A stretch of 11,921 bases of DNA from Candidatus Baldrarchaeum yapensis (GTDB lineage: Archaea > Asgardarchaeota > Baldrarchaeia > Baldrarchaeales > Baldrarchaeaceae): positions 1-11,921 of the forward strand of contig JAEOSH010000060.1 in the NCBI GenBank assembly GCA_016840465.1, in the 5' to 3' direction. Below, one piece after another: positions 345 through 11,921 of the stretch. How positions within the stretch are numbered: position 1 is the first letter of the stretch; every line of letters starts with the position of its first letter. A program made the position numbers and the translations under genes. The notes beneath the pieces are model-generated. The model did no database searches, was not told where the DNA came from, and saw only the letters and a program-made list of their open reading frames with translations.

Positions 345-377
345 TTCTGCATAACGTATTTTTGAGGGAGCGGTGCG

Positions 378-3215
378 ATGTTGCAGGAGGAGGTTTTGAG
401 GTGCGCGGTTAAGAGACTCATGTACGGTAAGGATATTGAGGTGGTTGAGAAGTTTGACGGGTTTATGGAGAGCCTTTTGAGCGTTAGGATGGAGTGGGCT
501 CTAAAATTCATGGAGTATGTACTTAGAGAACTATCGTCACTTGAAGGTCGTGTATCTACGAGGAATTACTTATTACGTAGCTTAAGGGTCGTGGAGCGGG
601 CGTTTTACTGGCTTATAAGGATGGGGTTTGTCGAGGATGCGGCGACAGTTTTTAGGAGGATGTTCCTCTCGTTATTGAGGGAGAAGGTCTTCGAAATCTT
701 TAATGCGCTTATGGAGGTTTACGTTAATACATTTGTGGAGATGGGGGTAGACGGCGTCTTATCACCGATTGATGTTGCAAATGAGGTGAGCAATGCGCTA
801 GATGAGTGTAAGCGGTGCGAATATGATCTGGAAGTAGCGTTGAGGGAACTTTTTTCTGTTAAGTATCATCCATTTAGGTGGACTGAGCGCCTATCGCGTG
901 TGTGGTCCAGTGCTATTGGGAGGGCGGTCATGAAGAAGGTTTTGGCGGTGATACAGGAGTGCGGCGGTATTTTAGGGTGGATTCGGAGAATGGGGAGAAA
1001 GTTTAGGTTCAATTTTCTAAGAGCGTTAAAGGAGGTGGATTTGGATCTTGCAATTAAGGTTATCGACGAGTTATGCGTTAAAACCGGTGTGGAGGATGAC
1101 GTTCTTCGGGAATTGGTCTCTAAGGGAAGGCTTGATGAGGCAATTGTCTTTGTTCGGAGGCATTCTGATGATATTTCTCCCGTAGCGTTGCTTGAGTTTG
1201 CGTTCAACATGGTGAAGGCGGGAGTTATGGATGAGGGGTTAAGAGTTCTGGGAGATGTAGTGGAGCGTGGATGGTGTTGCGATGAGGCCTCTCAGGTTTT
1301 AGTGATGAGGATCGCGGATGCTTTGGCCTCAACAGGTAAATTTGAGAACCTAATAGCCATTGCGGAAAAGGGAGAGTTTTTGCATCTTATTCTCATAGGG
1401 CTACTTGCGGGCGGTCATTTTGACAGGGCATTGAAGGTTCTCAAGCGTCTATATGTTCGCGAGCGCTGGTGTGATGAGGAGGGTTTGAGGGCGTGCGAGG
1501 AGGCGCTACGCACCAGAGATATTAAGGAGCTACTCATTTTGATATCTGACGTTTTCAGGAAGTATCATCATATGGACAAAAGTGGTAAGAGTTGGCATAG
1601 TTGGTTTTCAGGCGTTGTTATTCCGGTGTTTTTGGATCTAGGGAACTTTGAGGGCGCGGTTGAGGCGATAAGGTTTTTGTTGGAGTCCATGATGAGGAGA
1701 ATTCCAGACGATGTCCATGAGGTTTGTTGCAGTATTATTCGTTCCGTGAGGAGGCTTATGGAGGAGGGATGGGTGGAAGTTGGATATGCGATGCTTATGG
1801 AAATTTTAAAGATAGCAATTAAGGGGCGTTTTCTCGGATCCCGTGGCAAGTACGTGTCGGATGTTCTTTTGGGAGTAGCAGAGACGTTCTTTTATCATGG
1901 TTTTAAGAGGGAGGCGGTGAAGATGTTAGAAGTTTTCATAAATCTGATAGATGAGCGGATGAGTGAGTGTTGTTCACAGCATCGTGCCTGTATTAGGAAG
2001 TACGGCTCATGTTTGTTGAAGGAATATGTGACATGCTTATTAGAGCTTGTTAAGATGATTAAGGGGCATTTGGATGATGTTTGCAAAGAGAAGTGCTATA
2101 TGAGGGCAATAGACGCGTTGGGCTGCATGGATCATGTCATGAGGGGATTTTTGTTGAGAGACATAGTCGAACACGCCCTATTATGCGATATAAGTCCTAA
2201 GGCCTTGAGGAATATTATGATCCGGGCTCTTCGGACGGTGGGAGTTGTACGAGGGGGAAAGGACAATGACGTTGCGACGAAGTTGGATTATTACCTTGCG
2301 ATTGGCGAGCTGTTGGAAATTTTAAGTGTTGATGTTTTTCGGAGGGCAATTGAACTCGGGAGGTACGATTTCTTCGACGAATATGTTTGTAGGAAGCTTG
2401 TTGAAATTGCGGATAGGATTTTAGAGAACGTTGGCGACGTCCTTCTCGCCTGGTACTTAAAGATTGCTGCTGGTGCGTACTTTATGCTAACGCATGTGAT
2501 TGGAAGGGTGCGAGAAGTCATTAATGCGGTTCGAGGCGTCATCCGAGATATGGAATCGTCAAGTGTGTTAAACGTCTTTGAAGCGTCATCGCTTATGAGC
2601 ATTCTTTTGTGCAAAGGTCTGCTAAGGGAGTCATGCGAGGACGTAATACTAGCAGAGCTTGTAAGGACGATATTATCGGGGAACATATATGTATTTGGTC
2701 GTGAGAGAGGGTTCATTGAGAATGTAATGACTTCAGTGAAGAAAGCGGTTCTTTCAAGGGTTCCATGCGGCAAAAGATCGTTTATAGAGAAAGCTATTAA
2801 CAACATATTATGCGATGACATACTTCGTGTAATAATCGCGTTAGAAATCTACGACATGGCCGTAAAGGACAAAGATAATCTTATGGAGGACGTATCTCGG
2901 GAGATTCTCGAGGCTATTAAGAGGCTCGAGATAAAATTGGGAGAAAGGCGGTGCAATTTATTAACAGAGGGCGTTAGGACGATTTTGTGCAGGAGGGGAG
3001 CAATTTATACCGAAAAATGCGTATCTATAGATATTGCCAAAGAATACATGAAATTGCTACCGCGTGCGTTGCTTAAGGGTTATGATGAGCATTCACTGAT
3101 ACCAATAGGTATCGTGTATGATTTTGAGGAAATTGAGGAGTTCACGAGGTTCGCGACAAAACTTGTGTTGATATGTTTATTTGATCACCTTAGATTGTTG
3201 CAATCGGGTGGTTAA
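378..3215 (+). CDS. giant all-helical TPR-like repeat protein, paralogue A
   Basis: This 945-residue protein matches no family I recognise. It is a near-continuous run of amphipathic helices with TPR/PPR-like helical hairpins of the form G-x-F/L-x-x-A-x-x-x-L (GHFDRALKVL, GNFEGAVEAI, GRLDEAIVFV), which predicts an alpha-solenoid scaffold. No nucleotide-binding loop, metal-hydrolase motif or signal peptide is seen. It is cysteine-rich (about 29 Cys by eye), with eight Cys packed between residues 531 and 583. The downstream gene is a full-length paralogue; the best shared blocks are around SRVWSS (from residue 173), DLDLAIKVI, GHLDD, and a C-terminal EGVRT/KEYMKLLP segment. The ATG at 378 is preceded by GAGGGAG at 364-370. 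A role in protein-protein or RNA binding is only inferred from the fold. Confidence 0.85.
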   Translation: MLQEEVLRCAVKRLMYGKDIEVVEKFDGFMESLLSVRMEWALKFMEYVLRELSSLEGRVSTRNYLLRSLRVVERAFYWLIRMGFVEDAATVFRRMFLSLLREKVFEIFNALMEVYVNTFVEMGVDGVLSPIDVANEVSNALDECKRCEYDLEVALRELFSVKYHPFRWTERLSRVWSSAIGRAVMKKVLAVIQECGGILGWIRRMGRKFRFNFLRALKEVDLDLAIKVIDELCVKTGVEDDVLRELVSKGRLDEAIVFVRRHSDDISPVALLEFAFNMVKAGVMDEGLRVLGDVVERGWCCDEASQVLVMRIADALASTGKFENLIAIAEKGEFLHLILIGLLAGGHFDRALKVLKRLYVRERWCDEEGLRACEEALRTRDIKELLILISDVFRKYHHMDKSGKSWHSWFSGVVIPVFLDLGNFEGAVEAIRFLLESMMRRIPDDVHEVCCSIIRSVRRLMEEGWVEVGYAMLMEILKIAIKGRFLGSRGKYVSDVLLGVAETFFYHGFKREAVKMLEVFINLIDERMSECCSQHRACIRKYGSCLLKEYVTCLLELVKMIKGHLDDVCKEKCYMRAIDALGCMDHVMRGFLLRDIVEHALLCDISPKALRNIMIRALRTVGVVRGGKDNDVATKLDYYLAIGELLEILSVDVFRRAIELGRYDFFDEYVCRKLVEIADRILENVGDVLLAWYLKIAAGAYFMLTHVIGRVREVINAVRGVIRDMESSSVLNVFEASSLMSILLCKGLLRESCEDVILAELVRTILSGNIYVFGRERGFIENVMTSVKKAVLSRVPCGKRSFIEKAINNILCDDILRVIIALEIYDMAVKDKDNLMEDVSREILEAIKRLEIKLGERRCNLLTEGVRTILCRRGAIYTEKCVSIDIAKEYMKLLPRALLKGYDEHSLIPIGIVYDFEEIEEFTRFATKLVLICLFDHLRLLQSGG

Positions 3216-3237
3216 TGTTTTAATCGTTCTTGAAAAC

Positions 3238-3244
3238 GAGGTGG
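3238..3244 (+). promoter_or_regulatory. ribosome-binding site that fixes the start of paralogue B
   Basis: GAGGTGG matches the archaeal anti-Shine-Dalgarno closely and sits six bases before the ATG at 3250. It favours that ATG over a TTG 69 bases upstream (3181), which would overlap the preceding gene. Confidence 0.6.
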
Positions 3245-3249
3245 AATTC

Positions 3250-6081
3250 ATGGAGCATCTTCTCAGGCGAGTGATTTGTGCGATTTCCCGGGAAAAAGAT
3301 CCCGAATTGTTCGGGGAACTTATGGAGTTTTTAAGAGTACGGGGAGTGAAGAGTGTTTTGACGGCGTTAAATAGCACATATAATTATTTACTTTCGCGAG
3401 TTGACACGGTGGAGCCGAATGATTTGGGTCTCCTTGAAGTGGTACTCTCTTGGCTTATGAGAATGAATATGACGAATGAAGCCGCATCGCTCTTTAGGAG
3501 TGTCTTTTCATCTCTAATAAGGCGTGGGAGACTTGAGGCGTTTTCTCCACTCATGAAGATCTACGGTCGGGTATTTGCATGTAGAGAGTCGGATGATGTT
3601 ATATCGGTAATCGAGAAAGTCGCAGATGATGTGCATAAAGCGTTGATTGCATGTAGAGATGAAAAAAGGAAATTTAAGAAATGTTTGGATAAACTCTTCA
3701 GGCCGGGAGCCATAGAATCTTTCGTTACATACGAGTCTCAGTATTGTGAATCTTCGCGTGTGTGGTCCAGCATTTTTGGCGCGCGGGTCATGGAGCGGAT
3801 TCTGGCAACAATGGAGGAGAGCGGGGGAGTCATTGAATGGATACGCGTAATGGAACAGAAGTCGAGAGACGACTTTCTGGAAGCATTAAAGGAGTACGAC
3901 CTCGACCTTGCAATAAAAGTAATTAACGAGTCGGGACTCGGCAGAGCAGTAAAGTACGATCTTGTATGCGATCTTATTTCGAATGGAAGAATGAGGGAGG
4001 CATTATCCTTTATTTGGCGGCATATTGAGAGTTTCTGTTATGAGGAGTTATTTGATTTTGCACTGAGTTTTGCAAAGGGCGGATTTATCGATGAAGCTAT
4101 CGATCTAGTAAGGTATACGATTGAGTCGCAATGGGGTGATGTTTTTGACTTCTTCGATACATCTGATAGTCAGATCACATTCATGGAAGTGTTAAAAGTC
4201 CTCCTGCCGGCAAGAAGAACCCTCTACTTGATCAATTTGGCAGATAAGTTATGCATATTGGAACATGTGGTAATGGCGGCAATTGCGGGGGGTTACTTTG
4301 ATCTAGCATGGGAAATCCTAAGGCGTGATTATATAATTTCTGGTTACACAAAGGAAGAGTTGGAAGCGTGTAGGAGGGCATTGCGCGCCGGGGATCTGAA
4401 AAGTGCATTGTTATCCGTATCTAAAGTGTTCCTGAAGAGGTTTGAAGGAGCGTACACAGATATCTATTACGATTATGAGGAGGAAGAGACGGCTCTCAAG
4501 TGGTTTTCGGAGTACGTGATTCCAGCGTTTATAAACATCGGGAACATTGAGGGTGCTGTTCAGATAGTTGAATTCATGCTCGATGCAATAAAATCAGGTA
4601 ACGTCGATAAGTACATAGACGCCTGCAGGAAGCTCGCTGATGCGGCATGTAAAGTTATGAGTGCAGGTCGTCCGGATTTTGGTCGTCGTGTGTTGATGGA
4701 TCTTTTAGCGCATCTCCTTACACACGAACACGAAGATGATATATGCGAAGTAACGTTTGCGTGGATAATAGAAACCGTTCTTAAAGCTATAGAAGGACTT
4801 TACACAAATGGGTTCCACGAAGATGCATTTAGAGTTCTGAATGGAGCCATAATGCTGCTCATGTCTCGCAAATATGAATACTGGAAGGAGCTCGCAACAC
4901 AAGTCTTTATTGAAGAAGTAACGCGAAATGTCATTAATCGCATGTATATGCGCGGACACCTAGATGATAAACGGTACGTGGAATATTATAGCTACTTATT
5001 GAGTATGGCGACCACTCTCTTATCGGGAAATGAGAGAAGCAATTGTCTTAAGCATATAATCTCATCGATGTTGGAAGTCGATCCGCCTAAAGGAGTATTT
5101 AAGGAGATTGTAATGAGATTACTCGAAGTTGTCGGGAATAAAGGGGGAGAGGAGGAAAGCATCTTTTGGGATGTAGACCTTGCCATTAGTGACATTTTAA
5201 GCGTGTTCAACTCTCATATTTATCTTAAGGCCCTAGAAAATAGAAGACTTGAGTACTTTGACCGTGATATTGCACGAAGGCTTGTAGAAATCGTTCACGT
5301 AATATCTCGTGAAACGAGAGGGTCGATTGATTGGAATTTGGTCGTGACGGTATGTGCGTACGGGCTAATAACCGAGATTAATGAAATAGGACACGAGATT
5401 TTAAGAACAATATGGCATAACGTATCATATGAGAAAAAATGGAGAATATTTGAAGTTCTTGACGAGTTATCGCTTTTGAGAGTTATGGCAGGGAGAATAC
5501 TTTCTTACGAGCGTGCTTTAAAAGAATTGTTGGATGCTCTATTTGAACGGTTGCTGAAAGTACCTATATTGGCCACTCAGAGAGATTCTCTATCTATCGA
5601 TGACCTGCTGGGCGCTATCGAAAGAGCACTACATGACGGTTTATTAAACGAGGAAAGAGAAGTCATAAAATGGGCCATCTCTCGGTTACTGGGCAATGAA
5701 TTTTTGCGTTTATTAATAGCGCTTGAAATCAGCAGGTACATTGCGAGTAAAGGGTCAAAGAAAGTAGCAATGAAACTCTTTGATGAAGTACTTGAACTCA
5801 TAAGTAGAACAAACTTTTCGTTGTATGGGATCGTTAATAACTGGGTTGTAGAGGGCATCAGAACGTTTCTGAACAAAACAGGGTCTAAATACACACAAGC
5901 ATTCGGCATTCATAACGTTCATGAGAAGTACTTAAAATCTCTTCCCTCACCGCTAATCTCCGATAATGAAGTTGGCCTATGTGAAAGGAATGTACGTCCT
6001 CATCATCTAATATCTCTAACAGTGCTGATGGCAAAACTTATGCTGATAAGCGTACTCTCCGTTATTATTCCCGTAAAATGA
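3250..6081 (+). CDS. giant all-helical TPR-like repeat protein, paralogue B
   Basis: This is a 943-residue all-helical solenoid protein, homologous over its whole length to the preceding gene and almost exactly as long. Matching blocks occur in the same order: LMRMNMTNEAASLFRSVF near the N-terminus, SRVWSS (from residue 169), DLDLAIKVI, GYFDLAWEIL, NIEGAVQIV, GHLDD, LRLLIALEI, and EGIRT/EKYLKSLP near the C-terminus. Overall identity looks low, about a quarter to a third by eye. It has about half the cysteines of paralogue A (about 15) and lacks its 531-583 cluster. The last 26 residues are strongly hydrophobic (LISLTVLMAKLMLISVLSVI), which could be a membrane tail or a buried helix; the equivalent end of paralogue A is only partly hydrophobic. 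The 34-base gap and lack of an obvious promoter suggest co-transcription. No enzymatic motif is seen and the function is unknown. Confidence 0.85.
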   Translation: MEHLLRRVICAISREKDPELFGELMEFLRVRGVKSVLTALNSTYNYLLSRVDTVEPNDLGLLEVVLSWLMRMNMTNEAASLFRSVFSSLIRRGRLEAFSPLMKIYGRVFACRESDDVISVIEKVADDVHKALIACRDEKRKFKKCLDKLFRPGAIESFVTYESQYCESSRVWSSIFGARVMERILATMEESGGVIEWIRVMEQKSRDDFLEALKEYDLDLAIKVINESGLGRAVKYDLVCDLISNGRMREALSFIWRHIESFCYEELFDFALSFAKGGFIDEAIDLVRYTIESQWGDVFDFFDTSDSQITFMEVLKVLLPARRTLYLINLADKLCILEHVVMAAIAGGYFDLAWEILRRDYIISGYTKEELEACRRALRAGDLKSALLSVSKVFLKRFEGAYTDIYYDYEEEETALKWFSEYVIPAFINIGNIEGAVQIVEFMLDAIKSGNVDKYIDACRKLADAACKVMSAGRPDFGRRVLMDLLAHLLTHEHEDDICEVTFAWIIETVLKAIEGLYTNGFHEDAFRVLNGAIMLLMSRKYEYWKELATQVFIEEVTRNVINRMYMRGHLDDKRYVEYYSYLLSMATTLLSGNERSNCLKHIISSMLEVDPPKGVFKEIVMRLLEVVGNKGGEEESIFWDVDLAISDILSVFNSHIYLKALENRRLEYFDRDIARRLVEIVHVISRETRGSIDWNLVVTVCAYGLITEINEIGHEILRTIWHNVSYEKKWRIFEVLDELSLLRVMAGRILSYERALKELLDALFERLLKVPILATQRDSLSIDDLLGAIERALHDGLLNEEREVIKWAISRLLGNEFLRLLIALEISRYIASKGSKKVAMKLFDEVLELISRTNFSLYGIVNNWVVEGIRTFLNKTGSKYTQAFGIHNVHEKYLKSLPSPLISDNEVGLCERNVRPHHLISLTVLMAKLMLISVLSVIIPVK

Positions 6082-6173
6082 GACAAAGCCTCTAGGTCAG
6101 AGGTAGATCCTGTTAGTGATGTATCCATTAAGTACCCACTGCGATATCTCGTGTAATGTATTTGGTGATTTAA

Positions 6174-6201
6174 GCAAATATTGGAATATGTAAATATTTG
6201 C
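6174..6201. repeat. perfect 9-bp inverted repeat
   Basis: GCAAATATT (6174-6182) and AATATTTGC (6193-6201) are exact reverse complements around a 10-base loop. It lies 92 bases after the stop codon of paralogue B. It could be an RNA hairpin involved in 3' end formation or a protein-binding palindrome. There is no following T-run to make it a clear terminator. Confidence 0.6.
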
Positions 6202-6301
6202 CACGAACGGGTGGGAGATGTCGTGTTAGTGCGATTATTTGTCATGTTATGGGTACAGTCGGTCGAGATTGTTAACATCATTTATTCACGCGCATTAGAA
6301 A

Positions 6302-6624
6302 CATGATGGGGCTTTTATCACCATAGACGGTGGGATATCGGATGGGAGGCTTATGATGGAGAAGAATGCTGGCATTGGGGTCAGGCGGACGGATAGGCCT
6401 CTATACTGATGTATTTAATGACGTACGTGGCGAAGGAAGGGTAACTGACACAAGTACGGTTGATTTTTTATGATCCTGGAAAATACGGAAGAAAGGATGT
6501 GGTTTTTGATTTTCATGCACCTGATCTTGGCAAATTATTAGTGGGAGTATCGACTTACGTCGGTAATGTGTTCTGGGGAGTTTTTAAGGGAACTATGGGA
6601 TTGGTTAGTGTAAGCATCTCGTAA
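6302..6624 (+). pseudogene. possible decayed coding region with frame changes
   Basis: Three consecutive open stretches on this strand follow each other in different phases: 6302-6409 (contains FITIDGGISDGRLMMEKN), 6366-6473 from an ATG (LYTDVFNDVRGEGRV) and 6460-6624 from a TTG (YDPGKYGRKDVVFDFHAP, then a hydrophobic end). The second and third abut at a run of six T's (6464-6469), where a one-base slip would join them into one frame. Each piece has ordinary protein-like composition but no recognised family. This could be a broken gene, an assembly indel or chance; composition alone cannot decide. Confidence 0.22.
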
Positions 6625-6645
6625 TTGCTCACACAATCAGAAAAG

Positions 6646-6653
6646 TACTTAAG
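6646..6653 (+). promoter_or_regulatory. possible TATA box for tRNA-Glu
   Basis: TACTTAAG preceded by A-rich bases (AAAAG) resembles an archaeal BRE plus TATA element. A start near 6675 would give the tRNA a 5' leader of about 40 bases. No better box lies closer to the tRNA. Confidence 0.3.
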
Positions 6654-6716
6654 TTGAAAGGACAAGGTAAGGCAGAGGTATTGCACTGGTAGTTGTGTGG
6701 CGTGGTAGGGGCGGTT

Positions 6717-6807
6717 GCCCCGGTGGTGTAGCCCGGTCAAGCATGCGGGCCTTTCGAGCGCTGGGTGGAGATAGCCCGCGACCCGGGTTCAAATCCCGGC
6801 CGGGGCA
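6717..6807 (+). tRNA. tRNA-Glu (anticodon UUC) with a 16-nt intron
   Basis: The cloverleaf is complete: acceptor GCCCCGG (6717-6723) pairs with CCGGGGC (6800-6806), with discriminator A6807; D stem GUGU/GCAU; anticodon stem CGGGC (6746-6750)/GCCCG (6774-6778); T stem CCGGG (6783-6787)/CCCGG (6795-6799) around TTCAAAT. The anticodon TTC is at 6753-6755, and the 5' part closely resembles archaeal tRNA-Glu. Removing 16 bases (6757-6772) between positions 37 and 38 restores a 7-base anticodon loop and a 75-nt mature tRNA. CCA is not encoded. The G-C-only acceptor and T stems suggest growth at high temperature. Confidence 0.95.
6757..6772 (+). other. tRNA intron with bulge-helix-bulge splice motif
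   Basis: The intron lies at canonical position 37/38. Bases 32-35 (CUUU, 6751-6754) can form the four-pair central helix with GGAG (6767-6770) as C-G, U-A, U-G, U-G. This leaves three-base bulges C-G|A and A-U|A, with cuts after 6756 and 6772. That is the geometry used by archaeal tRNA-splicing endonuclease. At 16 nt it is near the short end for archaeal tRNA introns, and two of the four helix pairs are wobbles. Confidence 0.85.
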
Positions 6808-6808
6808 C

Positions 6809-6864: not shown

Positions 6865-6913
6865 TCGGGAGGACAGTATAAGGGGATTTTGTAGGGTTCA
6901 GGGTGTGGCCACC

Positions 6914-9971: not shown

Positions 9972-10247
9972 ATGGAGAAAAGAGTAGTGACCCCGGACAT
10001 GCTGGAGTTCCGGTTATCGAAAGTAAGGGAGTGGATAAAATTCGAGATTTCCGCGGGAGGTCAGGATTTATACGTTGGCTATATAAATCCGATCGTCTTT
10101 AAAGACGAAAAGGAGTTAAGGAGCATTTCGCGGGATATTGCAAAACTGCTAATCGAAGGTAAGGGTTTGCAATTAAATGTCGTTGTAGATGCAAGTTTGG
10201 AGGATCTGGAGGATATAATTCTCGAAAAATTGAAGGAGGGCAGATGA
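9972..10247 (+). CDS. 91-residue protein of unknown function, coupled to cdc48
   Basis: A small, soluble, acidic-basic mixed protein that I do not recognise. The pattern suggests alternating strands and helices: strand [10 protein letters not shown] (residues 15-24), strand [12 protein letters not shown] (27-38), helix [19 protein letters not shown], strand LQLNVVVDA, then a charged helix to the end. There are no Cys residues, no membrane segment and no nucleotide-binding motif. The ATG at 9972 follows AGGGGAG with suitable spacing. Its TGA ends one base before the cdc48 GTG, whose ribosome-binding site (GGAGG, 10235-10239) lies inside this gene, so the two are almost certainly co-transcribed and probably translationally coupled. 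A role as a partner or adaptor of the ATPase is only suggested by position. Confidence 0.8.
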
Positions 10248-11902: not shown

Positions 11903-11921
11903 CTGTCTCTTATACACATCT
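11903..11921. other. Nextera transposase mosaic-end adapter (sequencing artefact)
   Basis: The final 19 bases, CTGTCTCTTATACACATCT, are exactly the Nextera/Tn5 mosaic-end sequence used in library preparation. They break the cdc48 frame just after the Asp of the D2 Walker B motif, where the family requires Glu; natural DNA ends at GATG, consistent with Asp plus the first base of a Glu codon. These bases are not part of the genome. Confidence 0.97.

Follow-up and report, generated by a model that had tools for sequence, protein, structure and literature searches.

A tandem pair of long genes, A and B, on a short contig of an Asgard archaeon raises the question of what two large helical proteins that belong to no named family do, and with which partner. 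In eukaryotes, long alpha-solenoids make up coats, transport receptors and scaffolds for signalling, and no other known archaea are as closely related to eukaryotes as the Asgard group. The stretch of DNA analysed here (the window, 11,921 nt) is an entire contig, C21, of a 2.27-Mb genome in 100 contigs. What is new in the present analysis is the context of the pair: the cut open reading frame upstream (ORF0) is the C-terminus of a giant membrane protein, and relatives often carry a HEAT-repeat gene in the slot that A and B hold in the window.

A and B are tandem paralogous genes

Genes A and B are tandem paralogues and real coding genes. Gene A (positions 378–3215, + strand) encodes 945 aa with a pI of 6.5 and gene B (3250–6081, + strand) encodes 943 aa with a pI of 5.6. 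Ribosome-binding sites were read from the sequence before both, GAGGGAG at 364–370 (+), 7 nt before ATG 378, and GAGGTGG at 3238–3244 (+), 5 nt before ATG 3250. The start of B was taken at ATG 3250, as a longer version in the ORF list, from TTG 3181, would overlap A. Both ORFs are intact and share one strand with a gap of 34 nt; the longest chance open frame in shuffled sequence of equal length was at most 161 codons. The gene sizes and the start of B given in the initial annotation are confirmed by these coordinates and by GAGGTGG. BLASTP aligned the two proteins collinearly from end to end, with 29% identity over 889 positions (315 bits, E = 3e-97), in agreement with the blocks shared in the same order at low identity that had been noted before and, at 945 versus 943 aa, with an old tandem duplication kept at near-constant length. 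Differences between A and B at the first, second and third codon positions (0.56, 0.39 and 0.66) were highest at the third and lowest at the second, which is the pattern of protein-coding genes under purifying selection. A profile search of the window's genome returned no third copy.

A foreign origin of the pair was considered on codon usage and rejected, as the values of both genes (correlation 0.48 for A and 0.53 for B) lie within those of 72 further long ORFs from the same genome (5–95% range 0.42–0.78). Only the third-position GC skew of A (0.40) and its Cys content (3.1%) lay beyond the range of the other long ORFs. The C-terminal helix of B (residues 918–943) is hydrophobic, with a mean hydropathy of 2.3, and is a possible tail anchor; A has no such helix.

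Fold, family assignment and distribution of the pair

AlphaFold models of A and B were built from one common two-row alignment and hence are not independent. They comprise 49 and 47 helices, respectively (about 76% helix), with pLDDT of about 75–90 over most of residues 70–620 of A, lower confidence in B than in A and low confidence in the C-terminal third of both. Each model is a continuous stack of helical hairpins with no strands, which places A and B in the alpha-solenoid class; the modelling thus lends good support to an all-helical solenoid pair, as the initial annotation had described it. In these models from the same two-row alignment, a B helix faces 46–47 of the 49 helices of A, whereas shifted pairings give 36 on average and 42 at most, and to that extent the two behave as the superposable solenoids that had been anticipated. 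The G-x4-A motif of helix B in TPR/PPR-like hairpins occurs six times in A and seven times in B, compared with 1.3 and 0.9 in shuffled sequences; five of the motifs fall at common alignment columns. Hairpin spacing in the A model is 29–35 aa within residues ~235–400 (read between residues 239 and 367) and 39–49 aa further on, so a uniform TPR or PPR array does not describe the protein; the continuous TPR/PPR-like hairpins proposed earlier are found mainly within residues ~235–400 and not beyond residue 400, where spacing reaches 49 aa.

No Pfam, NCBIfam, PHROG or PADLOC family, anti-phage models included, matched A or B above its cut-off. Within the TPR clan of Pfam, TPR_14 scored 13.6 bits in A against a cut-off of 23.5, with no match in B; among PPR models, TIGR00756 gave a single 15.2-bit match in A against a cut-off of 20; HEAT and Adaptin_N models matched neither protein. 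Catalytic motifs were not found in A or B, and a literature search returned no description that matches the pair. The earlier statements that A and B lack a recognised family and catalytic motifs therefore hold, whereas a uniform TPR/PPR identity is contradicted by the profile search, every TPR and PPR match lying under the curated cut-offs. With the TPR/PPR/HEAT superfamily the pair shares antiparallel helix-pair stacks, the G-x4-A helix-B motif and long superhelical models; it differs in repeats that score under every curated cut-off, in hairpins whose length grows from about 32 residues to about 49 and in that no named family covers either A or B. Foldseek matches for both were exclusively long alpha-solenoids (among them Ski3, Ctr9, transportin-3, importins, exportin and CAND1), and the Foldseek and VIA-align searches gave only solenoids of a generic long kind, with no family-level match. 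TM-scores were at most about 0.26, as curvature differs among long solenoids and the models are of moderate confidence.

To assess the distribution of A and B, their profile was run against 227 genomes of the phylum, 226 besides that of the window, three of these from the same order. No reliable relative was detected in the 226 other genomes; the same search recovers B from A at 3e-91, so relatives equally diverged would have shown up. A and B are orphans within the phylum and lineage-specific, and the synteny comparison proposed in the initial annotation yielded no tandem copies in related genomes. Weak matches in five genomes (G046, G037, G020, G065 and G192; E 0.01–0.5) were short and were judged to be chance solenoid similarity; two of them were read, in G046 a repeat protein of 435 aa and in G020 an ORF of 857 aa. 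Homologues were likewise not found in genome contigs, viral contigs, phages or plasmids, three of these searches having used insensitive short peptide patterns. In the window's genome, actin gave two strong matches, the better at 4.6e-132, and an EAP30/ESCRT-II protein was found at 3.2e-25, which suggests that the host is an Asgard archaeon.

The giant membrane protein upstream and the slot behind it

ORF0 (positions 2–325, + strand) holds the final 107 codons of a gene truncated where the contig begins and matches the C-termini of giant signal-peptide/membrane proteins in all three other genomes of the order (G001, G002 and G003), with 42–47% identity and E down to 1.2e-32. Its residues 15–38 form a hydrophobic segment. 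Copies or decayed pieces of the giant family (~1,460 aa) are present in all three genomes. Giants with the N-terminal domain described below lie at L042:3459-7895, L044:8770-13137, L045, L046, L047, L068, L069 and L070. The full-length members, of 1478 aa in G002 and 1455 aa in G001, have a signal peptide-like start and hydrophobic segments near the C-terminus, and distant versions in other families of the phylum reach 1842 and >2500 residues. G001 and G003 each carry several paralogous copies, many decayed, as seen from frame breaks on three contigs (G003:C13, C295 and C321) and a C-terminal piece on a fourth (G001:C22). The remaining ~1,380 residues of the window's giant were not found elsewhere in the same assembly, and the window's giant may be a remnant like several of these decayed copies. 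In the N-terminal domain of the giants, a His-Gly and a Cys are invariant in seven sequences from four families. We suspect a CHAT domain, or another domain of clan CD, in divergent form: hhalign sets the His-Gly and Cys opposite the CHAT His and Cys, at P = 0.042 and a probability of 1.3%, and Pfam CHAT (PF12770) gives E = 0.24, but neither result is significant. A PDB search with the domain returned no match.

A HEAT-repeat gene follows the giant after 15, 71 and 14 nt in G002, G001 and G003:C25, respectively. The partner encoded by this family (L042:7911-9341, L044:7217-8698 and L096:1649-2989) has about 450–490 aa, and one copy clearly matches HEAT/Adaptin_N (3.4e-26). Five full copies or pieces were found in the three genomes, three of them directly behind a giant; of the others, one lies near a giant remnant on the same contig (G001) and one is decayed at a contig edge (G003). 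The family is absent from the window's genome. Like A and B, the HEAT partner is a large alpha-solenoid that lacks signal and membrane segments and lies directly 3' of a giant, at two of the three loci given above and in G003:C25; unlike them, it is a single gene with HEAT/Adaptin_N matches and no homology to A or B (hhalign 0.2%, BLASTP E ≥ 0.17). The slot is not strictly one for solenoids, as a protein of ~280–340 aa without HEAT match follows the giants of G001:C22 and G003:C13, and no comparable gene follows that of G003:C295 on the same strand. A second kind of gene behind giants (L043:5353-6240 and L045:7663-8502; ~280–295 aa) has a weak CH_2 match (0.001) but no clear family; two genomes carry it next to the gene for phosphoglycerate kinase. 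Sequence comparison gave no support for a common origin of A and B with either the HEAT partner or the ~280-aa partner.

In the window, the position usually taken by a solenoid partner behind the giant thus appears to be occupied by the unrelated, duplicated solenoid pair A and B. The fixed partner foreseen in the initial annotation is recovered in part: the gene upstream belongs to a family that is often followed by a solenoid gene in relatives, but not strictly so. ORF0 and A lie on the same strand with a gap of 52 nt, in which an archaeal TATA-like element, TTATATTT (337–344, +), was read from the sequence as a weak candidate. It is possibly gene A's own promoter, and the T-runs flanking it could mark the end of the upstream transcript.

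Candidate roles for the pair and remaining features of the window

We favour, with a probability of about 0.38, a tentative reading in which A and B form a paired alpha-solenoid scaffold, specific to their lineage, that serves the giant envelope protein and is linked to it by position. A and B would be paralogous large scaffold or adaptor proteins from one old tandem duplication, probably co-produced given their spacing, common strand and individual ribosome-binding sites. The giant would present an N-terminal signal peptide, an external His/Cys domain and hydrophobic C-terminal segments; on the cytoplasmic side, A and B would bind proteins as its scaffolds and fill the slot held by the HEAT-repeat protein in related genomes. 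The hydrophobic C-terminal helix of B may tether it to the membrane, A being the soluble partner, and an A–B heterodimer is plausible from the tandem arrangement, equal length and single hydrophobic tail. Counted against the scaffold reading are the positional nature of the link, the single genome in which A and B occur, the truncation of the giant at the contig edge, the lack of homology to the HEAT partner, the mixed occupancy of the slot and the possible promoter of A.

Almost equally likely, A and B form an orphan scaffold pair that stands on its own and came to lie behind ORF0 by accident, through rearrangement or insertion beside a decaying giant gene. Their occurrence in one of the 227 genomes searched fits this, as do the frequent decay of giants in the order and the possible promoter of A. 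The L13e locus of G002 and G003 also lacks ORF0, A and B, with no conserved synteny, so the arrangement of the window is not ancestral there. An accidental position sits less easily with three consecutive genes on one strand at gaps of 52 and 34 nt and with the succession of giant and solenoid gene at three loci in relatives. It is unlikely that A, B and the giant form an arms-race cassette for conflict or defence, in which a CHAT-like giant would act as effector and the two solenoids as its sensor or adaptor. The patchy distribution, the several paralogous and decaying loci, the exchanged downstream gene and the invariant His-Gly...Cys would suit such a cassette, and the HEAT partner matches the PADLOC model OloA (3.1e-15), although HEAT repeats alone may account for that match. 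However, A and B have no PADLOC match, the window holds no neighbouring defence genes, the CHAT assignment is not significant and prediction puts the His/Cys domain outside the membrane.

Two further explanations concern A and B themselves. RNA-binding PPR-like proteins are an improbable identity. In the PDB search, the A/B profile matched designed PPR proteins at positions 235–314 with 13–14 bits per repeat pair and E = 2.6e-11, a value that sums eight near-identical weak matches of about 9–14 bits each (individual E about 0.1–3.6); TIGR00756 and PPR10, the latter one of many Foldseek solenoids, point the same way. Every score is nevertheless under its cut-off, the hairpins beyond residue 400 exceed PPR length and the net charges of −4 (A) and −21 (B) would be unusual in an RNA-binding solenoid. 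Coat-like trafficking scaffolds of protocoatomer, adaptin or karyopherin type seem very improbable: the size of the two alpha-solenoids and the Foldseek matches to importins, transportin-3 and IFT-A proteins speak for them, but the TM-scores amount to no specific match, no beta-propeller was found in A, B or adjoining genes, and the pair is confined to one genome of the phylum.

A wider proposal that builds on the scaffold reading is doubtful. It would have an Asgard-lineage two-part envelope machine, made of a giant secreted or membrane-anchored protein with an outer divergent His/Cys (caspase-fold-like) domain and an exchangeable cytoplasmic solenoid partner, HEAT in one genus and A plus B in the window's family. 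Separase and TPR-CHAT/Craspase are solenoid-plus-caspase-fold systems that resemble A, B and the giant in the concept of a His/Cys domain working together with a long helical solenoid, and separase was among the Foldseek solenoid matches. In contrast to these systems, the putative His/Cys domain here, of suspected fold, resides in a separate membrane-anchored protein, and no sequence relation to separase or Csx29 was shown. At present, A and B are an orphan pair with a suggestive neighbour, a testable partner and an interesting lineage, and possibly an undescribed system. If the scaffold reading is true, it would show new solenoid scaffolds evolving in this lineage around membrane machines, with a duplicated pair at the HEAT place of its relatives beside the giant.

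The other unrecognised coding sequence reported beside the pair comes down to ORF0 and a 91-aa ORF at 9972–10247, the neighbours being otherwise recognised (L13e, inositol-phosphate synthase, S17e, CDC48 and a tRNA). The 91-aa ORF has no Pfam, PHROG or NCBIfam match and ends 1 nt before the CDC48 gene, with which it is probably co-expressed. Between B and the tRNA, ~630 bases (6082–6716) contain no convincing gene. The tRNA-Glu(TTC) gene at 6717–6808 (92 nt) probably contains a short intron; a listed 215-aa ORF at 6695 wrongly reads through it, and a start of the HTH gene near 6878 or 6915 is more likely. The last 19 bases of the window (11903–11921), CTGTCTCTTATACACATCT, are what we take to be an untrimmed Nextera transposase mosaic-end adapter. 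This adapter creates a false peptide, ...VSYTH, at the 3' end of CDC48, and the same peptide ends the ORF L046:3-881 in G003:C25.
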